A stretch of DNA of 18,679 nucleotides from an uncultured Phascolarctobacterium sp. (GTDB lineage Bacteria; Bacillota; Negativicutes; Acidaminococcales; Acidaminococcaceae): the NCBI GenBank assembly GCA_949287345.1, contig CASEGD010000018.1, forward strand, positions 1-18,679. Reading direction: 5' to 3'. The notes beneath the pieces were generated by a model. It saw nothing but the letters and a program-made list of their open reading frames with translations, was not told the origin of the DNA and made no database searches. Each line of letters begins with the position of its first letter. Position 1 is the stretch's first letter. Positions 3,571-17,876 of the stretch are shown here, in pieces. Both the position numbers and the translations under genes were made by a program.

Positions 3571-5793
3571 TTAGAAGCTGTATCTGATACCTGCGTTCCA
3601 TTTCCAGTCGGTTGTAATGTCGCCGCCGTAAGTTTTTTCAATATCAAAATACAGGTGCGTTGCGTCGCTGAGGTTAATGTTGGTACCTACGCCAACTTCG
3701 CACCAGCCGCCGCCAAGGTCTTCATCAAAATGTCTTTCTTTTCCGTTGGCGTTCGTAAAGGTTACGCCTGTTTCACCGTCAAAATCGTACAGGTAAGAAG
3801 CACGCAGGTAAACATTGCCGTTATGCAAATCTTTACCAAATCTTACACCGGCGCGTCCGATAAGGCTTTCCATGCCTTCCTGTGCTACCTTGATTTCACC
3901 GGCCTGATAATTTGCACTGCCGACATGACCGTAAGTCAGTTGTGCCTGCGGCTCAATCCAGAAACCATTGCCCTGCTGGAAGCGTTTGCCGACTTCTACA
4001 CCGATAGAATAGCCGTTAGCGTCATATTCGCCATCGCCCCAGGTATTTCTTAAATCGTGGTTCAGGCGAGAATATTTACCTACGATATCAATATAGCTGC
4101 CGTCATCGTTCAGCTTGCTGCCGTAAAGCGTTAAGGTTTTGTGGTCCATTTCATAACTGCCGGTGTTATAGCCGCCGTCGCCATCGGTGTAGCTGAATGC
4201 AGCACCTACAGTCCAGTGCGGGTCAGTACTTAATTTTTCATCGTAGCCAAGCTGATAGGTATTGTACTGGCTGTTAAGGCTCTTATAATCGTTTTCGCCG
4301 CGTACCATACGTACCCAAACGCCGTGCTCGCCTTTGCTGTCACGCAGTTCGCCAAGGCGTTTATTCATATCGTCAAGGTCATTGCGCCAGCTGATCAAAC
4401 CCAAAGCGCCAACTTCTTCAGTACCGAAAACATCGGGGTTTTTAATGGTTTCAATATCGGTAACAGTGCCGTCTTCATCTACCGTGCCTTCGCCGCCGTC
4501 AAAAATGTCGCCCGGGTCTTGTTCAACGTGTGCGCCGGTAGGTGCAAGGATTTCAGGAAGTTTGCTTCCTTCTTCACCTTCGTATTCACGTGTCATTTTT
4601 ACAACATATGCCAGTCTCTGCAAATCGTTTTCAAGGTTGCCGGTATTGTTTGTGTTGGCGCCAACGACTGTCATATTGCTGCAATTAATTTCATCACCTG
4701 TGGGATTGGTTTTATCATTAACATGGATATATACGCCTTTAGTATAATCAGCTTTATATTCATCCATACTACTGTAATTATATTCATCTGTGCCGTTTAC
4801 GTTGATAGTCAGTTTCTCAACATCAAAATTAATTTTGTCGCCACGCCAGTCTGTTTTTGTGCCGTCGCCAACACCACCAAAATCGGCTTTTGCGTTTTTA
4901 CCTAAATTAATGATTACGTTATCGCCTTTAATGTCAATAGCACTACAATTTATCGTACCTGAATATTCATAGATTGATGTTTTGAATTCTGCATTATCGC
5001 CAATAGTAATGTTATTTAAGTTAAAGGTAGCAGTATTGGTATTTACATCACCTAATGTTTGTAAAGAAAAATTACCGTCTTCTACTACTTCAATATCTTT
5101 TAATGTGGCTGAACTGTCATAATTTAGCTGAACTTTAGTTTTTCCGTCAGCGATTATTTTGTCAGCTGTAAATGTAGAACCGTTATAAACTTCTACACGA
5201 GCATCTTGTTCATCAGTGTCATTTTGGAGAAAAACATTTTTTACTATAGCATTTACTTTTTCTCCGTTATCTGTGTTTCCGTTAACGGATCCTATAACTA
5301 AACCTGTTTTAATACCGTGTGATTCAACAACTATGTTTTCAACGTTTTTGAGAACATCTTCGTTTAATACTTGTAAACCAGTTGCCATTTGTGAATTTAT
5401 ATCACTTTTTGTGCCAATAATGCGTAATTCATTAGCTGTTAGCTTTGCAGATAAACCATGTATGTAATCGAATTTATCTTTTGAACCACGAAAAATAAAT
5501 TTATCGACAGTAATGGCACCTGCTATTTCATCACTATTGTTAGTGAGAATATCCAAAGTGCCGGTTTCAATAGTGCCGGTATTATTAAAAGTACCGCCGT
5601 CAACAGTTATGCTTTCACTTGCATTAACAGTACCAGCGTTATAAAAAGATTCGTTTGTGCCTACTGCGATAACATCTTTGTTGTGTTCTGCACCTGGTCC
5701 AACGTTAACACTATTCGCATAAGCACTGCCGGTAATTACAAAAGCCATCAGCGCGCTTAAAGCAAAAGCCTTTCTTAAATTATGTTTTTTCAT
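3571..5793 (-). CDS. Autotransporter-type outer-membrane protein
   Basis: Predicted surface protein of the type V (autotransporter) class. It has 740 residues: a signal peptide (residues 1-26, basic K-K-H-N-L-R-K start, hydrophobic core, S-A-Y-A cleavage site); a repetitive Asn/Asp/Thr-rich passenger (about 27-440) with beta-helix-like strands such as G-T-F-N-N-T-G-T-I-E-T-G-T-L; a Gly/Glu/Asp-rich linker; and a C-terminal beta-barrel (about 489-740) starting near E-H-G-V-W-V-R-M and ending in W-N-A-G-I-R-Y-S-F. The terminal Phe is the usual outer-membrane assembly signal. An AAAAGGAGGT ribosome site (5801-5810) lies 7 bases upstream of the ATG. The passenger DNA is visibly more AT-rich than the barrel DNA, suggesting an exchanged or fast-evolving passenger. 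Ligand and function are unknown; adhesin is only a guess. It is monocistronic between two near-identical terminators. Confidence 0.88.
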   Translation of the reverse strand: MKKHNLRKAFALSALMAFVITGSAYANSVNVGPGAEHNKDVIAVGTNESFYNAGTVNASESITVDGGTFNNTGTIETGTLDILTNNSDEIAGAITVDKFIFRGSKDKFDYIHGLSAKLTANELRIIGTKSDINSQMATGLQVLNEDVLKNVENIVVESHGIKTGLVIGSVNGNTDNGEKVNAIVKNVFLQNDTDEQDARVEVYNGSTFTADKIIADGKTKVQLNYDSSATLKDIEVVEDGNFSLQTLGDVNTNTATFNLNNITIGDNAEFKTSIYEYSGTINCSAIDIKGDNVIINLGKNAKADFGGVGDGTKTDWRGDKINFDVEKLTINVNGTDEYNYSSMDEYKADYTKGVYIHVNDKTNPTGDEINCSNMTVVGANTNNTGNLENDLQRLAYVVKMTREYEGEEGSKLPEILAPTGAHVEQDPGDIFDGGEGTVDEDGTVTDIETIKNPDVFGTEEVGALGLISWRNDLDDMNKRLGELRDSKGEHGVWVRMVRGENDYKSLNSQYNTYQLGYDEKLSTDPHWTVGAAFSYTDGDGGYNTGSYEMDHKTLTLYGSKLNDDGSYIDIVGKYSRLNHDLRNTWGDGEYDANGYSIGVEVGKRFQQGNGFWIEPQAQLTYGHVGSANYQAGEIKVAQEGMESLIGRAGVRFGKDLHNGNVYLRASYLYDFDGETGVTFTNANGKERHFDEDLGGGWCEVGVGTNINLSDATHLYFDIEKTYGGDITTDWKWNAGIRYSF

Positions 5794-10976: not shown

Positions 10977-12128
10977 ATGAATTATAAATTACTCAATAAA
11001 AACCGTCCGCTTGCTGATATAGAATTATCTGACAGCGGGTTTATTGTTGATATCAATAAAATAATTGATGCCGAGGCTTTTCCTGTTGGCGTAATTACAG
11101 ATAATAACCTGAAAAATACAGTAGGAAGGCTTAACAGCTGGTGGCAGGGAAGGGCAATACCTGCCAGCCGCGATGGCTTAAAACAAATTCTTCAGGCTTA
11201 TGATATAGAAACAACAACCAAGCTTTCAGCAAGAAGCCTTGGGTTGAGCCTCTCTGACCAATATTGGATTAAACCTGCCGGAAGTGATATTGAATGGCAG
11301 GACGTAAACTTTTTTACAAATGAGTTTTCAAATGACCTTGGCGATGCTTTTTTCAGCCGTGGTTCATCTAAACCGAATATCAGCCCCATGACGCCGGATG
11401 CCAGCAGCAACGGCTGGTTAAAAAAGAAATGGACGATTATTGATGGAGAAAGATACCTTGCTAAAGCAGGTTCTGTTCCATTACTTCAACAACCATATAA
11501 TGAAGTTGCGGCATCTCAAATTATGCAATTGCTTGGCATAGAGCATGTTGAATACAGGCTGGTTATTGAAGAAGACAGGCCGCTTTGTTTGTGCAAAAAT
11601 TTTGTTGATACAGAAACTGAATTTGTACCGGCAAATTTAATCAGAAACATATTGCCAAAATCTAAAAATGATAATGAATATACGCATTTTCTTAAATGCG
11701 CAGAAAAGCTGCAAATTTTCAATGCCAAAGAGTACCTTAACAGCTTAATGACAATAGATTTTTTAATAGAAAATACTGACCGTCATTATGGTAATTTCGG
11801 TTTTATCCGCAATGTAAATACTTTAAAATTTGTAGGAGCTGCGCCGGTGTTTGACAGCGGCACCAGTCTTTGGTGTGAAGCGCTTAACAGCGAGATAGGC
11901 AGCTGGCAAAAAGTAATGCCGTTTAAAGAAACACACAAAGAACAAATCAGGCTTGTTGATAGTTTTGATATCAATCCTAATGAGCTCGGAAAAGTTTATG
12001 AAATAGTAAAAACAGTCTTAAGTTCCAGTCCGTATCTTGATAAAGAACGTGTTGAAAAAGTGACTGTTGCAGTAGAAAACCGGGCACGCGTTTTGGGTAA
12101 TATCATTAATACGAAAAGTCAAAAATAA
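10977..12128 (+). CDS. HipA-like (CtkA-type) serine/threonine kinase, orphan
   Basis: 383 residues with a GGAGGG ribosome site. The C-terminal half has the HipA/CtkA kinase signatures: a Gly-loop region near S-N-G-W-L-K-K-K-W (144-152), a likely ATP-contacting Lys163 in Y-L-A-K-A-G, N-E-V-A-A-S (175-180), the catalytic loop N-T-D268-R-H-Y-G-N273-F-G-F, and the metal-binding D293 in V-F-D-S-G-T-S-L. The N-terminal 100 residues are unassigned. HipA kinases phosphorylate proteins (for E. coli HipA, glutamyl-tRNA synthetase), but no HipB-like antitoxin ORF lies next to it, so a classic toxin-antitoxin role is not supported. Such proteins are often labelled excisionase-like in databases, which the motifs do not support. 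The gene is much more AT-rich than comF upstream, a sign of acquired DNA, and is closed by its own terminator. Confidence 0.72.
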   Translation: MNYKLLNKNRPLADIELSDSGFIVDINKIIDAEAFPVGVITDNNLKNTVGRLNSWWQGRAIPASRDGLKQILQAYDIETTTKLSARSLGLSLSDQYWIKPAGSDIEWQDVNFFTNEFSNDLGDAFFSRGSSKPNISPMTPDASSNGWLKKKWTIIDGERYLAKAGSVPLLQQPYNEVAASQIMQLLGIEHVEYRLVIEEDRPLCLCKNFVDTETEFVPANLIRNILPKSKNDNEYTHFLKCAEKLQIFNAKEYLNSLMTIDFLIENTDRHYGNFGFIRNVNTLKFVGAAPVFDSGTSLWCEALNSEIGSWQKVMPFKETHKEQIRLVDSFDINPNELGKVYEIVKTVLSSSPYLDKERVEKVTVAVENRARVLGNIINTKSQK

Positions 12129-12149
12129 CAGCATAATAAAAGTAAATAA

Positions 12150-12191
12150 AAAATACCATCCTGCCGTATTAGCGGTAAGGATGGTATTTTT
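12150..12191. terminator. Bidirectional terminator between the HipA-like gene and the GtrA gene
   Basis: Inverted repeat TACCATCCT (12154-12162) with AGGATGGTA (12178-12186), extended by CCG/CGG (12164-12166, 12173-12175), flanked by an A-run on the left and a T-run on the right. It serves the plus-strand HipA-like gene and the converging minus-strand glycosylation operon. Confidence 0.85.
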
Positions 12192-12207
12192 GTATATTCT
12201 ATAGAAC

Positions 12208-12585
12208 TTAACTTTTTAAAGCTTTCTTTTTAGCTACGTAATTCCATAATGTAACAATTATAGTCGAAATTATTTTGGCAAACATATAATAAATGCTTAA
12301 CTTTTCTACTAAAAACCACATTGATAGTTGATTAAGCAATAAGCCGCCCAAGCTTGCGTAGATGAATAAAATAAATTGTTTGCGCCCGTTTTTGCTTTTT
12401 GTAAAAACAAACAGCAGGCACAGGATATAGTTTACTATTACTGCAATACTAAAAGCCAATGCGGTAGATAACAGGTAATTTATTTGCAGTTTTTCTGTAA
12501 AGAAAAACAATAAACCATAATCAAGTAAGAAGGTTATAGCACCAACAATGCAAAACTTAATAAACTCTTTCATTTTATTTATCAT
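12208..12585 (-). CDS. GtrA-family membrane protein (putative polyprenyl-phosphate-sugar flippase)
   Basis: 125 residues with four hydrophobic helices (roughly residues 8-27, 35-58, 69-90 and 95-115) and a basic end K-K-K-A-L-K-S, the normal size and shape of GtrA. The opening I-K-F-C-I-V-G-A-I-T-F-L-L-D-Y-G-L-L matches the family signature, in which a conserved aspartate lies in helix 1. GtrA proteins are thought to flip undecaprenyl-phosphate-linked sugars across the inner membrane. The gene overlaps the end of the GT2 gene by 11 bp if the ATG at 12585 is used; the ATG at 12573 is an alternative start without overlap. Last gene of the three-gene minus-strand operon. Confidence 0.88.
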   Translation of the reverse strand: MINKMKEFIKFCIVGAITFLLDYGLLFFFTEKLQINYLLSTALAFSIAVIVNYILCLLFVFTKSKNGRKQFILFIYASLGGLLLNQLSMWFLVEKLSIYYMFAKIISTIIVTLWNYVAKKKALKS

Positions 12586-13519
12586 TGCTTTGAATCATTT
12601 TAATAAGATTCATTTGCAGCTCAAAAAATTGTTTATCTTTCTGGTTTTCGGTATCCAAAATCAATCCGCATACAAAGGATAAGAAAGCTGCAAGCATCAT
12701 TATGCTGGAAACTACCAAAGTAGGCAGCTTTGGTACTAAACCTGTTTTTAAATATTCCGCAAATACCGGAATAAAAAGAGCAAGTGAAAATACAGCCAAA
12801 ACTAAACCGACAGTGCTAAAAAATTTTAACGGTTTGTAATTTTTGTATAAAATAAAAATCGTCATTAAAACTTTAATACCGTCGGTATAGGTGTTTAATT
12901 TACTAAAACTACCCTCCGGTCTGTCCCTGTAACTAACGGGAACAGATTTTAAAAGCAGGTTTTTATCAAGTGCATGGATTGTCATTTCCGTTTCAATTTC
13001 AAATCCTTTGGATAAAACAGGAAATGTTTTGACAAACATAGGCGAAAAAGCTCTGTAACCTGTCATAACATCAACGATAGTATTTTTGTTATTGCCCCAA
13101 AACATATTTATGAATTTGCGGACAAGAACATTACCAAAACCATGGAATGGGCGTTTATTTTCTTCAAAGTATGTAGAGGACAACCTGTCACCTATAACCA
13201 TATCTGCTTTGCCGTTCAAAACCAAATCACACATTTCGCGTGCGTTTTCGGCAGGATAAGTATCATCGCCGTCAATCATTAAATAACAATCTGCGTTTAT
13301 ATCGCGGAACATGGAACGGATTACATTACCTTTACCCTGACGGTATTCATATTTTACTATTGCTCCGGCTTCTGCGGCAATTTTATCGGTATTGTCGGAA
13401 GAATTATTATCATAAACGTAAATATCGGCTTCCGGTAAAGCTGCTTTATAATCTTTAACTACTTTTGCTATGGTTTTACTTTCGTTGTAACAAGGAATAA
13501 GAACTGCTATTTTAGACAT
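12575..13519 (-). CDS. GT2 glycosyltransferase with two C-terminal membrane helices (GtrB/polyprenyl-phosphate type)
   Basis: 314 residues. The N-terminal GT-A domain shows V-L-I-P-C-Y-N-E (6-13), V-Y-D-N-N-S-S-D-N-T (35-44), the metal-binding M-I-D-G-D-D-T-Y-P (81-89), a G-D-R motif at 110-112 and G-F-E-I-E-T-E-M-T-I-H-A (172-183). Two hydrophobic helices (about 234-256 and 266-288) anchor it, as in GtrB and DPM1-like enzymes that load a sugar from a nucleotide donor onto undecaprenyl phosphate at the cytoplasmic face. The sugar cannot be read from the sequence. It overlaps the upstream membrane-protein gene by 13 bp and the downstream GtrA gene by 11 bp, so the three are translationally coupled. 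In the Gtr scheme this enzyme makes the lipid-linked donor, GtrA flips it, and the third protein attaches the sugar. Confidence 0.9.
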   Translation of the reverse strand: MSKIAVLIPCYNESKTIAKVVKDYKAALPEADIYVYDNNSSDNTDKIAAEAGAIVKYEYRQGKGNVIRSMFRDINADCYLMIDGDDTYPAENAREMCDLVLNGKADMVIGDRLSSTYFEENKRPFHGFGNVLVRKFINMFWGNNKNTIVDVMTGYRAFSPMFVKTFPVLSKGFEIETEMTIHALDKNLLLKSVPVSYRDRPEGSFSKLNTYTDGIKVLMTIFILYKNYKPLKFFSTVGLVLAVFSLALFIPVFAEYLKTGLVPKLPTLVVSSIMMLAAFLSFVCGLILDTENQKDKQFFELQMNLIKMIQSNDK

Positions 13520-14748
13520 TTAAATTTTCCTTTCATGGATGACTTAACTTTTTGCCAATCTGTAACGTAATACATTGCGTAACCTAATCCGAATACGGTA
13601 ATTATCTGTGAACGGTAAGTAAACCAAGCGTGAATTTGCGAATGATTTGCTGCCATGAGATACCATAAATATGGCATCAATGAAATCAAAATTATTTTTT
13701 TGATAAAAATTTTATTGATTACAGCTTTACGGAATTTATAAAGTAAAATACCGCATACAATGAAAATTAATGAAAAAATTATAATTTTAGGAGTATGACC
13801 GAATGGTTGTACAAGCATTTTAATGTTATTTCCTAACATTGAGAGTCTATGAACTTCGTATTTTGCGCCGTCACCGGCAACGCGGAATATAACTTGATTA
13901 AATGCCTGCAAGATAATGTTTTGTGAACAAATAATAGTTGCTAAAATCCATTTTGCAGCCCATGTGCCAACATAACCAACAGACCAGAAGATAAAAGAAT
14001 TTATAATAGTTTTATTGGGGATAAGATAGTTATATTTTTGATAATAATGAATTACCAATAAAAGCATTACAATACCGATTGGCAGAATTGGCGTTGTTAA
14101 TAAATCAAGGAAAACAGTTATAGAACCTAAGACAAAAGAAAAAATAAAAAGACGTTCAGTGCTTAAAGTTTTATCGTTAAAATCAAATGCGTTTTGGTTA
14201 CAAAGTAATTTATCGGCAGCCAATATTGCCAGCAGCATTAGCATCATTATATTTGTAAATTGCAGACTTACAGGAACGATAATAAATTTTGCGCACATGA
14301 CAGCGACAAAAAATAACCAACTGGCAATAGAATTGACATTCTTTTTGATTACATTCATTGCTTTAATAAGCAACGCAAACATGATAAAAATGTTTATATA
14401 TCTGATTTCAAAATAATTAAAAGGTAAAAGTAACGGACGTAAAATTACCTGATAACCATGCCAGTATCGGCTGTAACCATTCATAAACATTGCCTGTTCA
14501 AGTGCGTTATCATCAATATTTTTTGGTAAAACTCTTTCCAACATAACTCTGTCAGTAAAATTATCTAATTGGCTTGCAACATTATTATTAAAGAAATATT
14601 TAGGATAATTTGATTCTTTTTTTATTAAAGCTAAACCGTTTTGTGCATGACGTTCAAGCGGTGTTGGTGTTACTAGATAAACTGCCGATAAAGCGACAAC
14701 ATAAAACACAATTAAGCTGATAAAAATTTTTAGAAGTTTTTTATACAT
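13507..14748 (-). CDS. Polytopic membrane protein, candidate GtrC-type transferase
   Basis: 413 residues. There is one N-terminal helix (about 6-26), then a loop of about 90 residues probably facing the periplasm, holding acidic residues (L-D-N-F-T-D-R near 61-67) and the aromatic motif Y-S-R-Y-W-H-G-Y (92-99), then about eight further hydrophobic helices. This layout resembles GT-C fold glycosyltransferases, which use lipid-linked sugars outside the membrane. I do not recognise a named family; the call rests on topology and on being first in an operon with GtrB- and GtrA-like genes, where serotype-converting phages encode the variable GtrC. A GAGGTGG ribosome site precedes the ATG by about 9 bases. 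The gene is strongly AT-rich, another feature shared with horizontally acquired glycan genes. Its upstream region is the palindromic element at 14782-14917. A flippase or polymerase is possible instead. Confidence 0.65.
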   Translation of the reverse strand: MYKKLLKIFISLIVFYVVALSAVYLVTPTPLERHAQNGLALIKKESNYPKYFFNNNVASQLDNFTDRVMLERVLPKNIDDNALEQAMFMNGYSRYWHGYQVILRPLLLPFNYFEIRYINIFIMFALLIKAMNVIKKNVNSIASWLFFVAVMCAKFIIVPVSLQFTNIMMLMLLAILAADKLLCNQNAFDFNDKTLSTERLFIFSFVLGSITVFLDLLTTPILPIGIVMLLLVIHYYQKYNYLIPNKTIINSFIFWSVGYVGTWAAKWILATIICSQNIILQAFNQVIFRVAGDGAKYEVHRLSMLGNNIKMLVQPFGHTPKIIIFSLIFIVCGILLYKFRKAVINKIFIKKIILISLMPYLWYLMAANHSQIHAWFTYRSQIITVFGLGYAMYYVTDWQKVKSSMKGKFKCLK

Positions 14749-14781
14749 TTAGTTAGCCACCTCAACTTAATTTTTTAAATA

Positions 14782-14801
14782 CAAAAAAGTGTACTTTATT
14801 G
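14782..14801 (+). repeat. Left inverted 20-bp site (candidate recombinase crossover site)
   Basis: CAAAAAAGT-GT-ACTTTATTG, an imperfect dyad: the half-sites AAAGT/ACTTT pair around a 2-bp GT core and the outer CAA/TTG also pair. The reverse complement of 14898-14917 matches it at 18 of 20 positions, including 16 consecutive bases. Confidence 0.88.
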
Positions 14802-14822
14802 CGCACTAAATTTTACAGCTTT

Positions 14823-14850
14823 GTTATACCAGTAAGCCCTTGAAAAACAA
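14823..14850 (-). promoter_or_regulatory. Weak promoter-like sequence facing the glycosylation operon
   Basis: On the minus strand, TTGTTT (14845-14850), 16-bp spacer, TATAAC (14823-14828) with the extended -10 bases TGG before it. It is a poorer match than the opposed promoter at 14840-14867 and would drive the GtrC-like gene in the present orientation. Confidence 0.45.
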
Positions 14851-14867
14851 GGCTTTAATGGTATAAT
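14840..14867 (+). promoter_or_regulatory. Stronger promoter-like sequence facing away from the glycosylation operon
   Basis: TTGAAA (14840-14845), 16-bp spacer, TATAAT (14862-14867) preceded by TGG, an extended -10. In the present orientation it points toward the 3' end of the recombinase gene (antisense). Inversion of the element would turn it toward the GtrC-like gene. Confidence 0.5.
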
Positions 14868-14897
14868 AGAAAAGCAATGTATAATTTAGTATAAAAA

Positions 14898-14917
14898 CAA
14901 TAAAGTACACTTTATGG
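14898..14917 (-). repeat. Right inverted 20-bp site (candidate recombinase crossover site)
   Basis: CAATAAAGT-AC-ACTTTATGG on the plus strand; its reverse complement has the same GT core and ACTTTATTG arm as the left site. It ends 13 bp from the recombinase stop codon. Same asymmetric core in opposite orientation is what inversion, rather than deletion, requires. Confidence 0.88.
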
Positions 14918-14930
14918 AAAATAACGCAGG

Positions 14931-15539
14931 TTACGAAATGTTGATGTTTTCGTAATGCTGGGCGCGGTAGCGGAAGGTGGTCAGCGGCATGTTGCATTCC
15001 TTTGCGGCGGTGATGCCGGTAATTTTGCCCGCCTTCCATTTTTGATATGCGGCGTGAAATTCATCGGGCAATGGTTTGGGCGGCCTGCCGAAGCGTATGC
15101 CTTTGGCTTTGGCGGCGGCAATGCCTTCCGCCTGACGCTGGCGGATGTTAATGCGTTCGTTTTCCGCAACAAAACTGAGCACCTGCAAAACAATGTCGCT
15201 TAAAAATGTGCCCATTAAATCTTTGCCGATACGGGTATCTAAAAGCGGCATATCCAGAACAACAATGTCAATCTTTTTAATCTTGGTAAGGTAACGCCAT
15301 TGTTCTAAAATTTCCGTGTAATTTCTGCCAAGGCGGTCGATGCTTTTAATAAAAAGCAGGTCGTTTGCCTTCAGCCTGCGCAGCAGTTTTTGGTACTGCG
15401 GGCGTTTAAAATCCTTGCCGGACTGTTTATCGACGTATAAATTTTTCAGCGGTATTTCCATTTTGCGCATGGCAATAAGCTGCCTGTCCTCATTCTGGTC
15501 ATAACTGCTGACGCGGATGTAACCGTAATTTGTAGCCAT
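14931..15539 (-). CDS. Small serine recombinase (invertase/resolvase family)
   Basis: 202 residues. The start used is the ATG at 15539: AGGAGG lies 5 bases upstream and the protein then starts A-T-N-Y-G-Y-I-R-V-S-S like Hin/Pin. An ATG at 15569 would only add ten residues. Catalytic Ser11 lies in Y-I-R-V-S-S-Y-D-Q; other family motifs are S-G-K-D-F-K-R-P-Q-Y, I-K-S-I-D-R-L-G-R-N and the long E-helix region around F-V-A-E-N-E-R-I-N-I-R-Q-R-Q-A-E-G. The C-terminal A-A-K-E-C-N-M-P-L-T-T-F-R-Y-R-A is a helix-turn-helix that would bind a 9-12 bp half-site. Length fits site-specific invertases and resolvases, not large integrases or IS607 (whose DNA-binding domain is N-terminal). It is the only recombinase in the window, with no transposon ends or partner transposase seen, and lies beside the inverted sites and glycosylation operon. 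Confidence 0.92.
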   Translation of the reverse strand: MATNYGYIRVSSYDQNEDRQLIAMRKMEIPLKNLYVDKQSGKDFKRPQYQKLLRRLKANDLLFIKSIDRLGRNYTEILEQWRYLTKIKKIDIVVLDMPLLDTRIGKDLMGTFLSDIVLQVLSFVAENERINIRQRQAEGIAAAKAKGIRFGRPPKPLPDEFHAAYQKWKAGKITGITAAKECNMPLTTFRYRAQHYENINIS

Positions 15540-15617
15540 AGTGCCCTCCTTAAAAATGTTCCTAACCATAAACAGGCTTTTGTGCAGAAAATATTAACCT
15601 GCTTTCGGCAAAATGGC

Positions 15618-15656
15618 ATAAAAAAACAGCCGTGATGTTATCACAGCTGTTAAAAA
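15618..15656 (-). terminator. Terminator after the DUF4127 gene
   Basis: On the minus strand, AACAGC-T-GTGA (15651 to 15641) pairs with TCAC-G-GCTGTT (15635 to 15625) across a TAACA loop with one mismatch, and is followed by a run of seven T. It lies about 13 bp beyond the DUF4127 stop and before the recombinase gene, so the two are separate transcripts. Confidence 0.8.
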
Positions 15657-15663
15657 TTTTCCG

Positions 15664-17257
15664 CTACCGGGCGGATTTTTTTATGCCGTATTCGCATTTG
15701 GTTCGTAAATCAATTTCAAAAATTCTGTTCCACGGCAGTTTGGTTTTGGGTTCGATGCCGGTGAGGTAGTATTGGTTTGCGCCGTCCGTGTAAAACGGCG
15801 TTAGCCCCAGATTGGTGTACAGTAGTTTTGTTTTTTCGCGGTAAATAAAGCCTTCGATGATATCTTCCGCAAAGGTTTTGTAAGCAGGTTTAAGCTCAAC
15901 AGGGTCTGCTCCGCGCAGTTTTAGTTCCTCCGTCAGTTTGTGGTGCAGCAGTTTTTGGTAGCAGTAATCGTCCAGCAGGCGGTCAACCGTAAAATTAAGG
16001 TTGGCTGCGTACAGCGCGGACAAATTTTGCGGCGGCAGGGTTTTAAGCTGCCCGGTAAAAATTGCGCTTTGCGCGACGGCTGTGCCTGCTGCGTTGCCGA
16101 AGGTGTTCCACGCTGCGTAGGCGGCAAGTTTGTTGATTTGCACATCGTTATCCAAAAGCACCGGCAGCAGCATTTGTTTACTTTCGTAATCTTCGCTGCT
16201 GTCGATAACGGCGACATGCCTGCCTTCATCAAGCAGCTGCTGCAAGCGTTGTGCCATTCCGTCCGTGGCAGGCTGCTTTTCACTGCTGCAGTGTACAAAC
16301 AAAATTACATCGGCATTGTTAATATCCTGCGTAAGCGTGCCGCCGCTGAATTTTATTTTGTCAATCAGCGCGGCTTCTGCCGTTACCGCCATGTAGGGCA
16401 TAATGGCAACGGCGGCGTCCGGTGTGGTATATTCAATATAAAATTTTGGCTGATAGTTGTGCGTGTTGCAAAAGCGCCGTGACACTAACATCTGGGCAAT
16501 TTCATCTGCGCCGCAGGTGGTAAGGCACTGGCTGTTTAAACCGGCGCGGTGCATATAGGCATCCGCGTGGGCGCGGTTACGGTTGGGCAAACCAAAAGGC
16601 TGGGCGTCGTCCTGCCCGATGATGAGCGTGTATTTTTTGCCGCCGCAGATGGCAGCAAGCTGTTTGTTAAAAGCGTCGTTGTTTTGGTACAGCGTGTTGT
16701 ATTTTTGCAGTATCTTCGCCGGTATGCGGGCTTTGATTTCTTCCAGCTTCTGTGTGGAAGGGTAGTCGCCGAACTGCTCCACAATATCGCGCAGGGTGCT
16801 GTAACGCATCAGGTGCCATTGGTACCAGGCGTCGGGCAGCAGGTTATCGCTGACGAGCAGGCGCGGTATTATTGAAAAGATTGTAATATCGCCCGCGGGC
16901 AGATTGTTGAGCGTTGCAAAAAAGTTTTGTTCATCAGCGGCGGTGCCCAATGGCAAACGCGAGCCGAGCAGCCCGCCGTGGATTAGTAAATCACCTGAGA
17001 TGACGGCGGCGGGGTAGTTTTGAATGTTTTGGTTAAGCCACGCCGTTAATTTTGTGCGGTCGGCCGGATTGTGGTAGTTGTCAAGAAGTTCGTTTGGGGG
17101 TACAATTACATCTATGGAGGCAAGCCTGCCTCGGCAGCAAAAGCATTTTATCCTGCATGGGCAGGGATGTTGGCACGTAAGGCGTGCTTGTGGGCAGCCA
17201 AAAATAGTAAAAAATAAAACTGCAAAGGGCGAGCAGCAAAAGCAAAAAATTTTTCAT
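15664..17257 (-). pseudogene. DUF4127 family protein, 5' region broken by a short deletion and frameshift
   Basis: The gene starts at the ATG 17257 with an AGGAGG site (17264-17269) and encodes a signal peptide/anchor (M-K-N-F-L-L-L-L-L-A-L-C-S-F-I-F-Y-Y-F), but this frame stops after 58 codons at 17081-17083. From about 17130 downward a second frame carries the rest of the family: S-I-D-V-I-V-P-P-N-E-L-L-D-N-Y-H-N-P, S-G-D-L-L-I-H-G-G-L-L-G-S-R and, from 16956, 430 more open codons. Frame one reads D-K-M-L-L-L-P exactly where the family continues P-L-D-x-R-P-P; that motif and about 15 residues are absent, so roughly 45-50 bp have been lost near 17125-17135, with a frame change. The second frame has no start codon of its own upstream of a TTG at 16956. 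DUF4127 proteins are exported or envelope-linked in Firmicutes, of unknown function. The remaining frame is otherwise intact, so the break is recent or a sequence error. Confidence 0.78.
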
Positions 17258-17318
17258 GTGCGTCCTCCTTTGCAGTGTGTGGTTACAGATATTATATTAC
17301 ATTTACGGAGTTTTTTAA

Positions 17319-17876
17319 ATGAGGATTATTACGGGCAAGGCGCGCGGGCTTAAGCTGACAACGCCGAAAAACTGGGACGTGCGCCCGACGGCGGACCGCG
17401 TGAAGGAATCGCTGTTTAATATTATCGGCAGTAAAATTGTAGGGGCACGGGTGCTGGATTTGTTTGCGGGCACGGGCAACCTTGGGCTGGAGTGCTGGAG
17501 CCGCGGCGCGGAGCACATTGTTTTTACGGATATGAGCCGCGAATCGCTGCGTCTGGTGCAGAGCAACATTGCCAAATGCCGTGCGGAAAACGAAACGGAA
17601 ACACTTTTGGGCGATGCGGTGCAGCTGATTGACCGTTTGTACAAAAAAGGCGCGCGCTTCGATTTTGTTTTTGCCGACCCGCCGTACAATAAGGGGCTGG
17701 TGCAGAAGGTTATCGCCGCGCTGGCACAAAGCCCGCTTTTAAACGACGGCGGCTACCTTGTGGCGGAACATTCGGCGCATGATGATATCGGCACATTGCC
17801 GGAAAATTTTGAGCTGGTACGCTGCGAAACTTACGGCGAAACCAAAATTAGTTTTATTCGTTTTGCAAAAATATAA
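17319..17876 (+). CDS. rsmD: 16S rRNA m2G966 methyltransferase RsmD
   Basis: Methylates N2 of G966 of 16S rRNA using AdoMet. At 185 residues it has family length. Seen: the start M-R-I-I-T-G-K-A-R-G and R-P-T-A-D-R-V-K-E-S-L-F-N (about 22-34), AdoMet motif I D-L-F-A-G-T-G-N-L-G-L-E (47-58) and the catalytic motif IV D-P-P-Y (120-123). GGAG lies 8 bases before the ATG. It sits directly upstream of coaD, the common firmicute order, with a 108-bp gap that has its own promoter-like sequence. It is divergent from the DUF4127 pseudogene; a TATTAT at 17290-17295 may be its -10 element, without a clear -35. Confidence 0.95.
   Translation: MRIITGKARGLKLTTPKNWDVRPTADRVKESLFNIIGSKIVGARVLDLFAGTGNLGLECWSRGAEHIVFTDMSRESLRLVQSNIAKCRAENETETLLGDAVQLIDRLYKKGARFDFVFADPPYNKGLVQKVIAALAQSPLLNDGGYLVAEHSAHDDIGTLPENFELVRCETYGETKISFIRFAKI

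Follow-up and report, generated by a model that had tools for sequence, protein, structure and literature searches.

Small serine recombinases of the Hin/Gin type are DNA invertases that act at inverted sites with a 2-bp centre. The Mpi-type master invertase of Bacteroides is also a serine recombinase; it affects surface glycan by promoter inversion and acts on many distant promoters. The Sin/Bin3 resolvases, found in Tn552 and staphylococcal plasmids, belong to the serine recombinases as well and act at compound sites.

Invertible promoters, termed invertons, have been described in gut bacteria (accessible parts of Jin 2025, PMC11892184; Jiang 2019, as cited in PMC8327913 and PMC11868660). 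According to the accessible text of Jin 2025, the most significant link is that of group 139 invertons, 32 of 33 of which are from Clostridia, with invertase group 35, a tyrosine recombinase; the word "serine" does not occur in the main text of that paper as accessible (PMC11892184). The gtrABC operons of Salmonella and Shigella encode a flippase, a bactoprenol sugar synthase, and a diverse GtrC transferase, and they are phase variable in Salmonella, where the variation depends on Dam and OxyR (accessible part of PMC3688519).

The DNA analyzed here (the window) is a stretch of 18,679 nucleotides from an uncultured Phascolarctobacterium sp. It contains a locus that, like invertons, has a short segment between inverted repeats, here with a predicted promoter, next to a putative invertase and upstream of surface genes. 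By its anatomy and its natural orientation, with both orientations found between genomes, the locus is an inverton. It differs from the group 139/35 pairing of Jin 2025 in that a Sin/Bin3-like serine recombinase lies beside GTGTAC-centred sites. The locus shares with Mpi the serine recombinase, inversion of a (here predicted) promoter, and a presumed effect on surface glycan; unlike Mpi, it comprises one recombinase and one site pair, as counted in a draft genome, and the recombinase scores 45.9 bits against the NCBIfam Mpi model NF009949, which has a cut-off of 272. The small serine recombinase and the inverted sites with a 2-bp centre resemble the Hin/Gin systems, but the recombinase gene is positioned outside the segment and its sequence is nearer to Bin3/Sin. 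Among recombinases with solved structures, the Sin/Bin3 resolvases are nearest in sequence; the sites mapped here are two simple crossover sites, 116 bp apart, on either side of a predicted promoter. The operon resembles gtrABC, as described in the accessible part of PMC3688519, in encoding GtrA-family and GT2 GtrB-like proteins, together with a candidate GtrC-like transferase. In contrast to gtr of Salmonella, its control is proposed to be by DNA inversion instead of Dam/OxyR, and its gene order is C-B-A.

We consider it very likely that the locus is a self-contained phase-variation unit, in which recombinase-driven promoter inversion switches the gtr operon. The locus gives good support to recombinase-linked promoter inversion upstream of glycosylation genes in a member of the Negativicutes, a lineage of gut bacteria that possess an outer membrane. 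A description of a recombinase family with GTGTAC sites, or of a Phascolarctobacterium switch, was not found in the main texts covered, which include few subscription papers; the accessible part of PMC8327913 names Phascolarctobacterium for other matters only.

Organization of the locus

The gene of the Sin/Bin3-like serine recombinase is located on the minus strand at positions 14931–15539, upstream of the element, and reads toward it. These positions take the probable ATG as the start of the gene; in its longest form the frame begins at 15569, and the search queries covered 14931–15533, two residues short of the ORF. The protein matches the resolvase catalytic domain (Pfam Resolvase, PF00239) with 91.2 bits at a cut-off of 23.3. 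Its motifs RVSS and SIDRLGRN align with those of Bin3/Sin and hold residues that we take to be the nucleophilic serine and the catalytic arginines of small serine recombinases. Bin3/Sin are matched with an E-value of 1.9e-31, in comparison to about 1e-12 for solved DNA-invertase entries, and the sequence is also nearer to Bin3/Sin than to gamma-delta resolvase. The genome that contains the window (G000) has one recombinase of this kind and one site pair, a count from which further sites may be missing because the assembly is a draft of 207 contigs and approximately 90% complete. A master invertase with many promoters finds no support in this draft genome, which contains one further site match with at most two mismatches, on another contig (G000:C125). 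A mobile carrier of the recombinase was rejected: among 401 matches to plasmid records at E-values up to 1e-30, 400 have less than 60% identity, the four matches to phage records are all unannotated, two of them at 60–80% identity, and none of the plasmid or phage matches is a close carrier.

The element is bounded by two perfect inverted arms of 16 nt each, at 14786–14801 (plus strand) and 14898–14913 (minus strand), with the identical sequence AAAGTGTACTTTATTG; the extended arms are 27 nt long and 81% identical. The arms are the longest perfect inverted pair in 14701–15000, where 300 dinucleotide-preserving shuffles give a maximum of 12 nt. Both arms are near-palindromic and show the dyad AAAGT-GT-ACTTT around a 2-bp centre. 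A two-base centre is expected for crossover sites of small serine recombinases. The recombinase-proximal site, CCATAAAGT-GT-ACTTTATTG, occupies 14898–14917 on the minus strand with its centre at 14907–14908 and is kept in three other genomes of the genus (G016, G017/L005, and G018). The operon-proximal site, CAAAAAAGT-GT-ACTTTATTG, occupies 14782–14801 on the plus strand with its centre at 14791–14792. The invertible segment of 116 bp between the two centres (14792–14907) is AT-rich and intergenic, and it is bounded by inverted repeats. No tRNA was found and there is no Rfam match at gathering thresholds; the exact pattern of the element does not occur in IMG/VR.

The three genes of the operon (12208–14748, minus strand) have overlapping ends. 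The first encodes a GtrC-like polytopic protein of 413 aa (13507–14748), which belongs to no Pfam family and has a GT-C-like fold according to its model. A Foldseek search with this model gave nothing significant (best E-value 0.55), and the protein has three weak matches in phages and no relative in IMG/VR. At 89–95% identity, 22 GtrC proteins (P0001–P0022) are on record. It is followed by a GtrB-like GT2 protein, a predicted polyprenyl-phosphate glycosyltransferase (12575–13519; PF00535, 60.2 bits, cut-off 23.3), which matches the dolichol-phosphate mannose synthase 5mlz with an E-value of 2.8e-06, and by a GtrA-family membrane protein (12208–12585; PF04138, 93.7 bits, cut-off 26.1). The G+C content is 31.9% in the operon, 47.3% in the recombinase gene, and 46.6% in the window.

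A sequence-only reading of the window had proposed, leftwards on the minus strand, a serine recombinase, a 136-bp element with inverted sites, and a coupled GtrC-like/GT2/GtrA operon. The ORFs, Pfam matches, and repeats confirm this order, the 136 bp correspond to 14782–14917, and the region 14792–14907 that it singled out is the stretch between the crossover centres. The operon is borne out by the overlapping ends and by the Pfam families of the GT2 and GtrA proteins; the GT-C-like model is in line with a GtrC-like role of the first protein. A diderm firmicute had been suggested as the host, which fits the position of Phascolarctobacterium in the class Negativicutes and the autotransporter beta-domain encoded in the window. 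This domain is part of a large protein encoded at 3571–5793 and is consistent with an outer membrane.

Opposite orientations of the putative promoter segment

The best promoter-like match in positions 12000–17400 is TTGAAA-16-TATAAT with an extended -10 (11/12 consensus positions), located inside the segment at 14840–14867 on the plus strand. It faces away from the operon and toward the recombinase, indicating that the window holds the OFF form. The scan of this region yields 17 sites, a total that does not stand out from shuffles (14.8, s.d. 4.3), and therefore the consensus match at 14840–14867 is by itself no evidence of function. In G018 the matching promoter-like site faces the operon (ON), and its -10 ends 83 nt ahead of the gtrC start. 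The earlier proposal of a promoter segment upstream of the operon holds insofar as a predicted promoter lies inside the segment; it had not stated that the window is in the OFF form, which is corrected here.

The orientation was compared between the window genome and five other genomes of the genus (Phascolarctobacterium-like, Negativicutes), and the inverted form is present in one, G018 (locus L111). There the same operon is preceded by the inverted segment, and both flanks are colinear with the window at 94–97% identity. The stretch between the sites aligns between the two genomes in reverse complement over 128 nt with 96% identity; the 96-nt interior has five mismatches once flipped, as opposed to an identity of 0.63 unflipped. 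An exact pattern search of the six genomes finds the site pair in the window genome and G018 only, with opposite interiors, and both crossover sites are identical between the two. The reversed orientation in a related genome had been set beforehand as a test, and it is seen in G018 together with the colinear flanks. Both orientations exist in nature, as a difference between the window and the genome of another species or strain. Locus L111, which has the ON orientation, also carries a frameshift in gtrB, caused by a 1-bp deletion about 60 codons into the gene. Unless this frameshift is an assembly error, G018 may lack a working pathway.

In the proposed mechanism, the serine recombinase would bind the two inverted GTGTAC-centred sites and cut at the central GT, and the 116-bp segment, carrying one putative strong promoter of the sigma-70 type, would be inverted. 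The neighbouring recombinase is probably the catalyst of the flip, and we infer that flipping is continuing and reversible. In the ON orientation, that of G018, transcription is expected to start in the segment and the promoter would read into gtrC-gtrB-gtrA. GtrB would then load a sugar onto a polyprenyl carrier, GtrA would flip the carrier, and GtrC would move the sugar onto the surface glycan, which would presumably be altered. In the OFF orientation of the window, the promoter would read away from the operon and antisense into the recombinase gene.

Resident recombinase and differing cargo in the genus

The recombinase is present with an intact frame and 88–100% identity in all six genomes of the genus. 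In a search of 59 genomes of the family, it is matched at E-values of 1e-30 or lower in 16, and the GtrC-like protein is matched at 1e-10 or lower in two, the window's own genome and G018, both of which have the recombinase. The genes behind the recombinase are the gtr operon in two genomes of the genus, MBOAT/AlgX-like genes in one, and others or none in the rest. G014 has an inverted pair (19/22) and a promoter match that faces its MBOAT and AlgX-like genes. In G017/L005 the proximal site is followed by a hipA-like gene, without element or operon, and the similarity to the window breaks at the inner edge of this site. G016 has one site behind the recombinase and then a short frame that was read by eye as GNAT-like. 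In G015 (L108) the pair is altered (16/22) and has a different core, with arms AAGTATAGG / AAGTATGGG; the contig stops 218 nt past the recombinase, inside a new frame. Independent occurrence of the element and the recombinase, which the sequence-only reading had named as evidence against itself, is partly seen in the single-site recombinases of G017/L005 and G016. The GtrC-like protein is found only together with the recombinase (2/59).

The recombinase and the proximal site look like fixed residents of the genus, whereas the segment and cargo differ between species. The operon was probably acquired by a locus in which the recombinase was already in place, although it may instead have been lost from the other genomes. 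With a fixed recombinase and differing cargo, how phase-variable loci gain genes becomes testable within one genus. Two neighbouring genes also vary. A HipA_C-domain gene, which in the window adjoins the operon (10977–12128), is shared with G017 and G018 and is missing from this position in G014 and G016. Upstream of the recombinase, the DUF4127 gene of the window (15664–16956; break at 17131/17132) is without 41 bp that are found in G015, G017/L005, and G018, and the frame left to it encodes 430 aa versus 544 aa in L005.

Alternative explanations

The segment could switch the operon between high and low instead of on and off, through a bidirectional promoter on the central dyad that is strong in one direction and weak in the other. 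The two strands of the dyad at 14824–14866 read TGGTATAAT and TGGTATAAC; the dyad has promoter-like sequence on each strand and is kept in G018. A weaker opposed pair read from the sequence, TTGTTT-16-TATAAC (14823–14850, minus strand), shares this dyad (inverted repeat I6) and faces the operon, so that high/low switching is possible and the state of the window could be LOW instead of OFF. However, the opposed -35 TTGTTT and -10 TATAAC match the consensus poorly and the pair is absent from the output of the promoter scan of 12000–17400, and we regard a bidirectional promoter as doubtful. It is far less credible, to the point of being nearly negligible, that the inverted repeat is a mere regulator-binding or terminator structure unlinked to the recombinase. 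The arms themselves are near-palindromic, as such a structure might be, but the stretch between them is reversed in G018, and they fit the site consensus of the recombinase's neighbours in Clostridia.

A single past inversion may have become fixed between lineages, with a recombinase that no longer flips the segment and no present phase variation. The evidence for inversion is between genomes, and in G016 and G017/L005 the recombinase has been retained next to just one site, so its presence is no proof of its use. The intact recombinase frame in six of six genomes, the identity of both sites in the two element-bearing genomes, and the distant loci described below, which share the architecture and include another inverted pair, nevertheless make a fixed past event improbable. 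The recombinase could also serve chiefly for gene exchange at its site, by capture or loss of cargo, with promoter inversion as a by-product. This would agree with the cargo that differs or is absent behind the same recombinase across the genus, with the loss of similarity between the window and L005 at the inner boundary of the proximal site, and with the contrast in G+C content between operon and recombinase. Excision would need a further site at the far end of the operon, but there is none within two mismatches, and excision of the cargo via a third site was rejected; moreover, the arrangement conserved elsewhere is a close inverted pair. We judge gene exchange unlikely to be the main function, and a recombinase-driven ON/OFF switch of the gtr operon remains the preferred reading.

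Related loci in Clostridia

The wider set of loci comprises the best 80 of 594 relatives from a scan of species genomes; 79 are outside the genus, and 74 have at least 150 unmasked nucleotides downstream of the recombinase. A strong inverted pair (at least 17/22) is found just downstream in 41 of these 74 loci and is lacking in 33, in comparison to 4 of 444 shuffles and none of 68 stretches located 800 nt further on. GTGTA or GTATAC occurs within the first 120 nt in 59 of the 74 loci from this best-80 set and in 14% of shuffles. In Clostridia, too, the recombinase is repeatedly followed by a GTGTAC-centred site and, approximately 138 nt further, by its inverted partner, with cargo of various kinds behind them. 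Among the more distant loci L090–L104, 12 of 15 could be scored and two have a pair of at least 17/22 (L095, 19; L096, 17); L091 and L092 have GTGTA in both arms and low pair scores.

Fifty-four units were selected by the core motif in the proximal arm: 51 wider loci from the best 80 of 594, the window, L107, and L111. Three of the units were placed by hand or not kept, and L015 has a weak pair. The median site spacing is 138 nt. The 103 site arms yield a symmetric consensus of approximately TTTaCAggAAnGT-GT-ACnTTccTGtAAA, a common dyad with a GT centre, in which conservation of the inner bases is partly by construction because these were used for selection, whereas the outer bases were not. 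Two pairs of loci with matching neighbourhoods have opposite orientations, the window/L111 and L016/L026; in the latter, the element is inverted (85%) and the downstream DNA matches (96%). Further close pairs do not differ in this way; L051/L059 and L057/L068, for example, are oriented alike.

A promoter score of at least 10 is reached in 43 of the 54 units and in 19% of shuffled elements. The promoter faces the recombinase in 32 of the 43 units and the cargo in 11 (binomial P 0.0019), and without five near-duplicates and three rows from the genus it faces the recombinase in 29 of 38; this bias is a lead only, since assemblies give the majority form, the loci are relatives of one another, and the scoring is crude.

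The first downstream plus-strand gene was sorted as cargo at 48 loci of the best 80 of 594, 46 with the core of the best pair in the proximal arm and two placed by hand. Forty-six of the genes were scanned singly, those of L026 and L059 were classed like L016 and L051, to which they are nearly identical, and in L013 and L021 the counted gene does not adjoin the element. Six encode S-layer, LRR, or collagen-like surface proteins; nine, DNA methylase, restriction-type, or helicase proteins (L028 just below the Pfam cut-off); two, TadZ-like proteins; one, a sugar transferase; and one, a GGDEF/EAL protein. Another 12 have some Pfam match and 17 have none. PADLOC methyltransferase models match three of the 48 genes at E-values of 1e-10 or lower, among the families listed (the first 25 of 83). 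The DNA methylase, restriction-type, or helicase genes are at L016, L024, L026, L028, L039, L051, L054, L059, and L070, and this cargo suggests phase-variable defence.

These loci point to a single recombinase/site family that precedes genes with surface or DNA-modification functions in Clostridia. If this is true, the defined site would make it possible to read the orientation at many of these switches from existing sequencing reads, and so to learn which genes for surface or defence functions gut Firmicutes use in bet-hedging. We tentatively propose, as a speculative extension, that Sin/Bin3-like recombinases form a portable phase-variation module across Clostridia and Negativicutes. The resident recombinase and proximal GTGTAC site would be a platform for exchanged promoter-plus-cargo units (glycosylation, S-layer/LRR, restriction/helicase, pili, signalling), and antisense transcription from the OFF promoter would damp the recombinase and lock the OFF state. 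Such self-locking would fit the excess of promoters that face the recombinase. Loci L040, L051, L054, L059, and L061 have more short inverted repeats around the proximal site, just past the recombinase stop, which are possibly terminators between recombinase and cargo.
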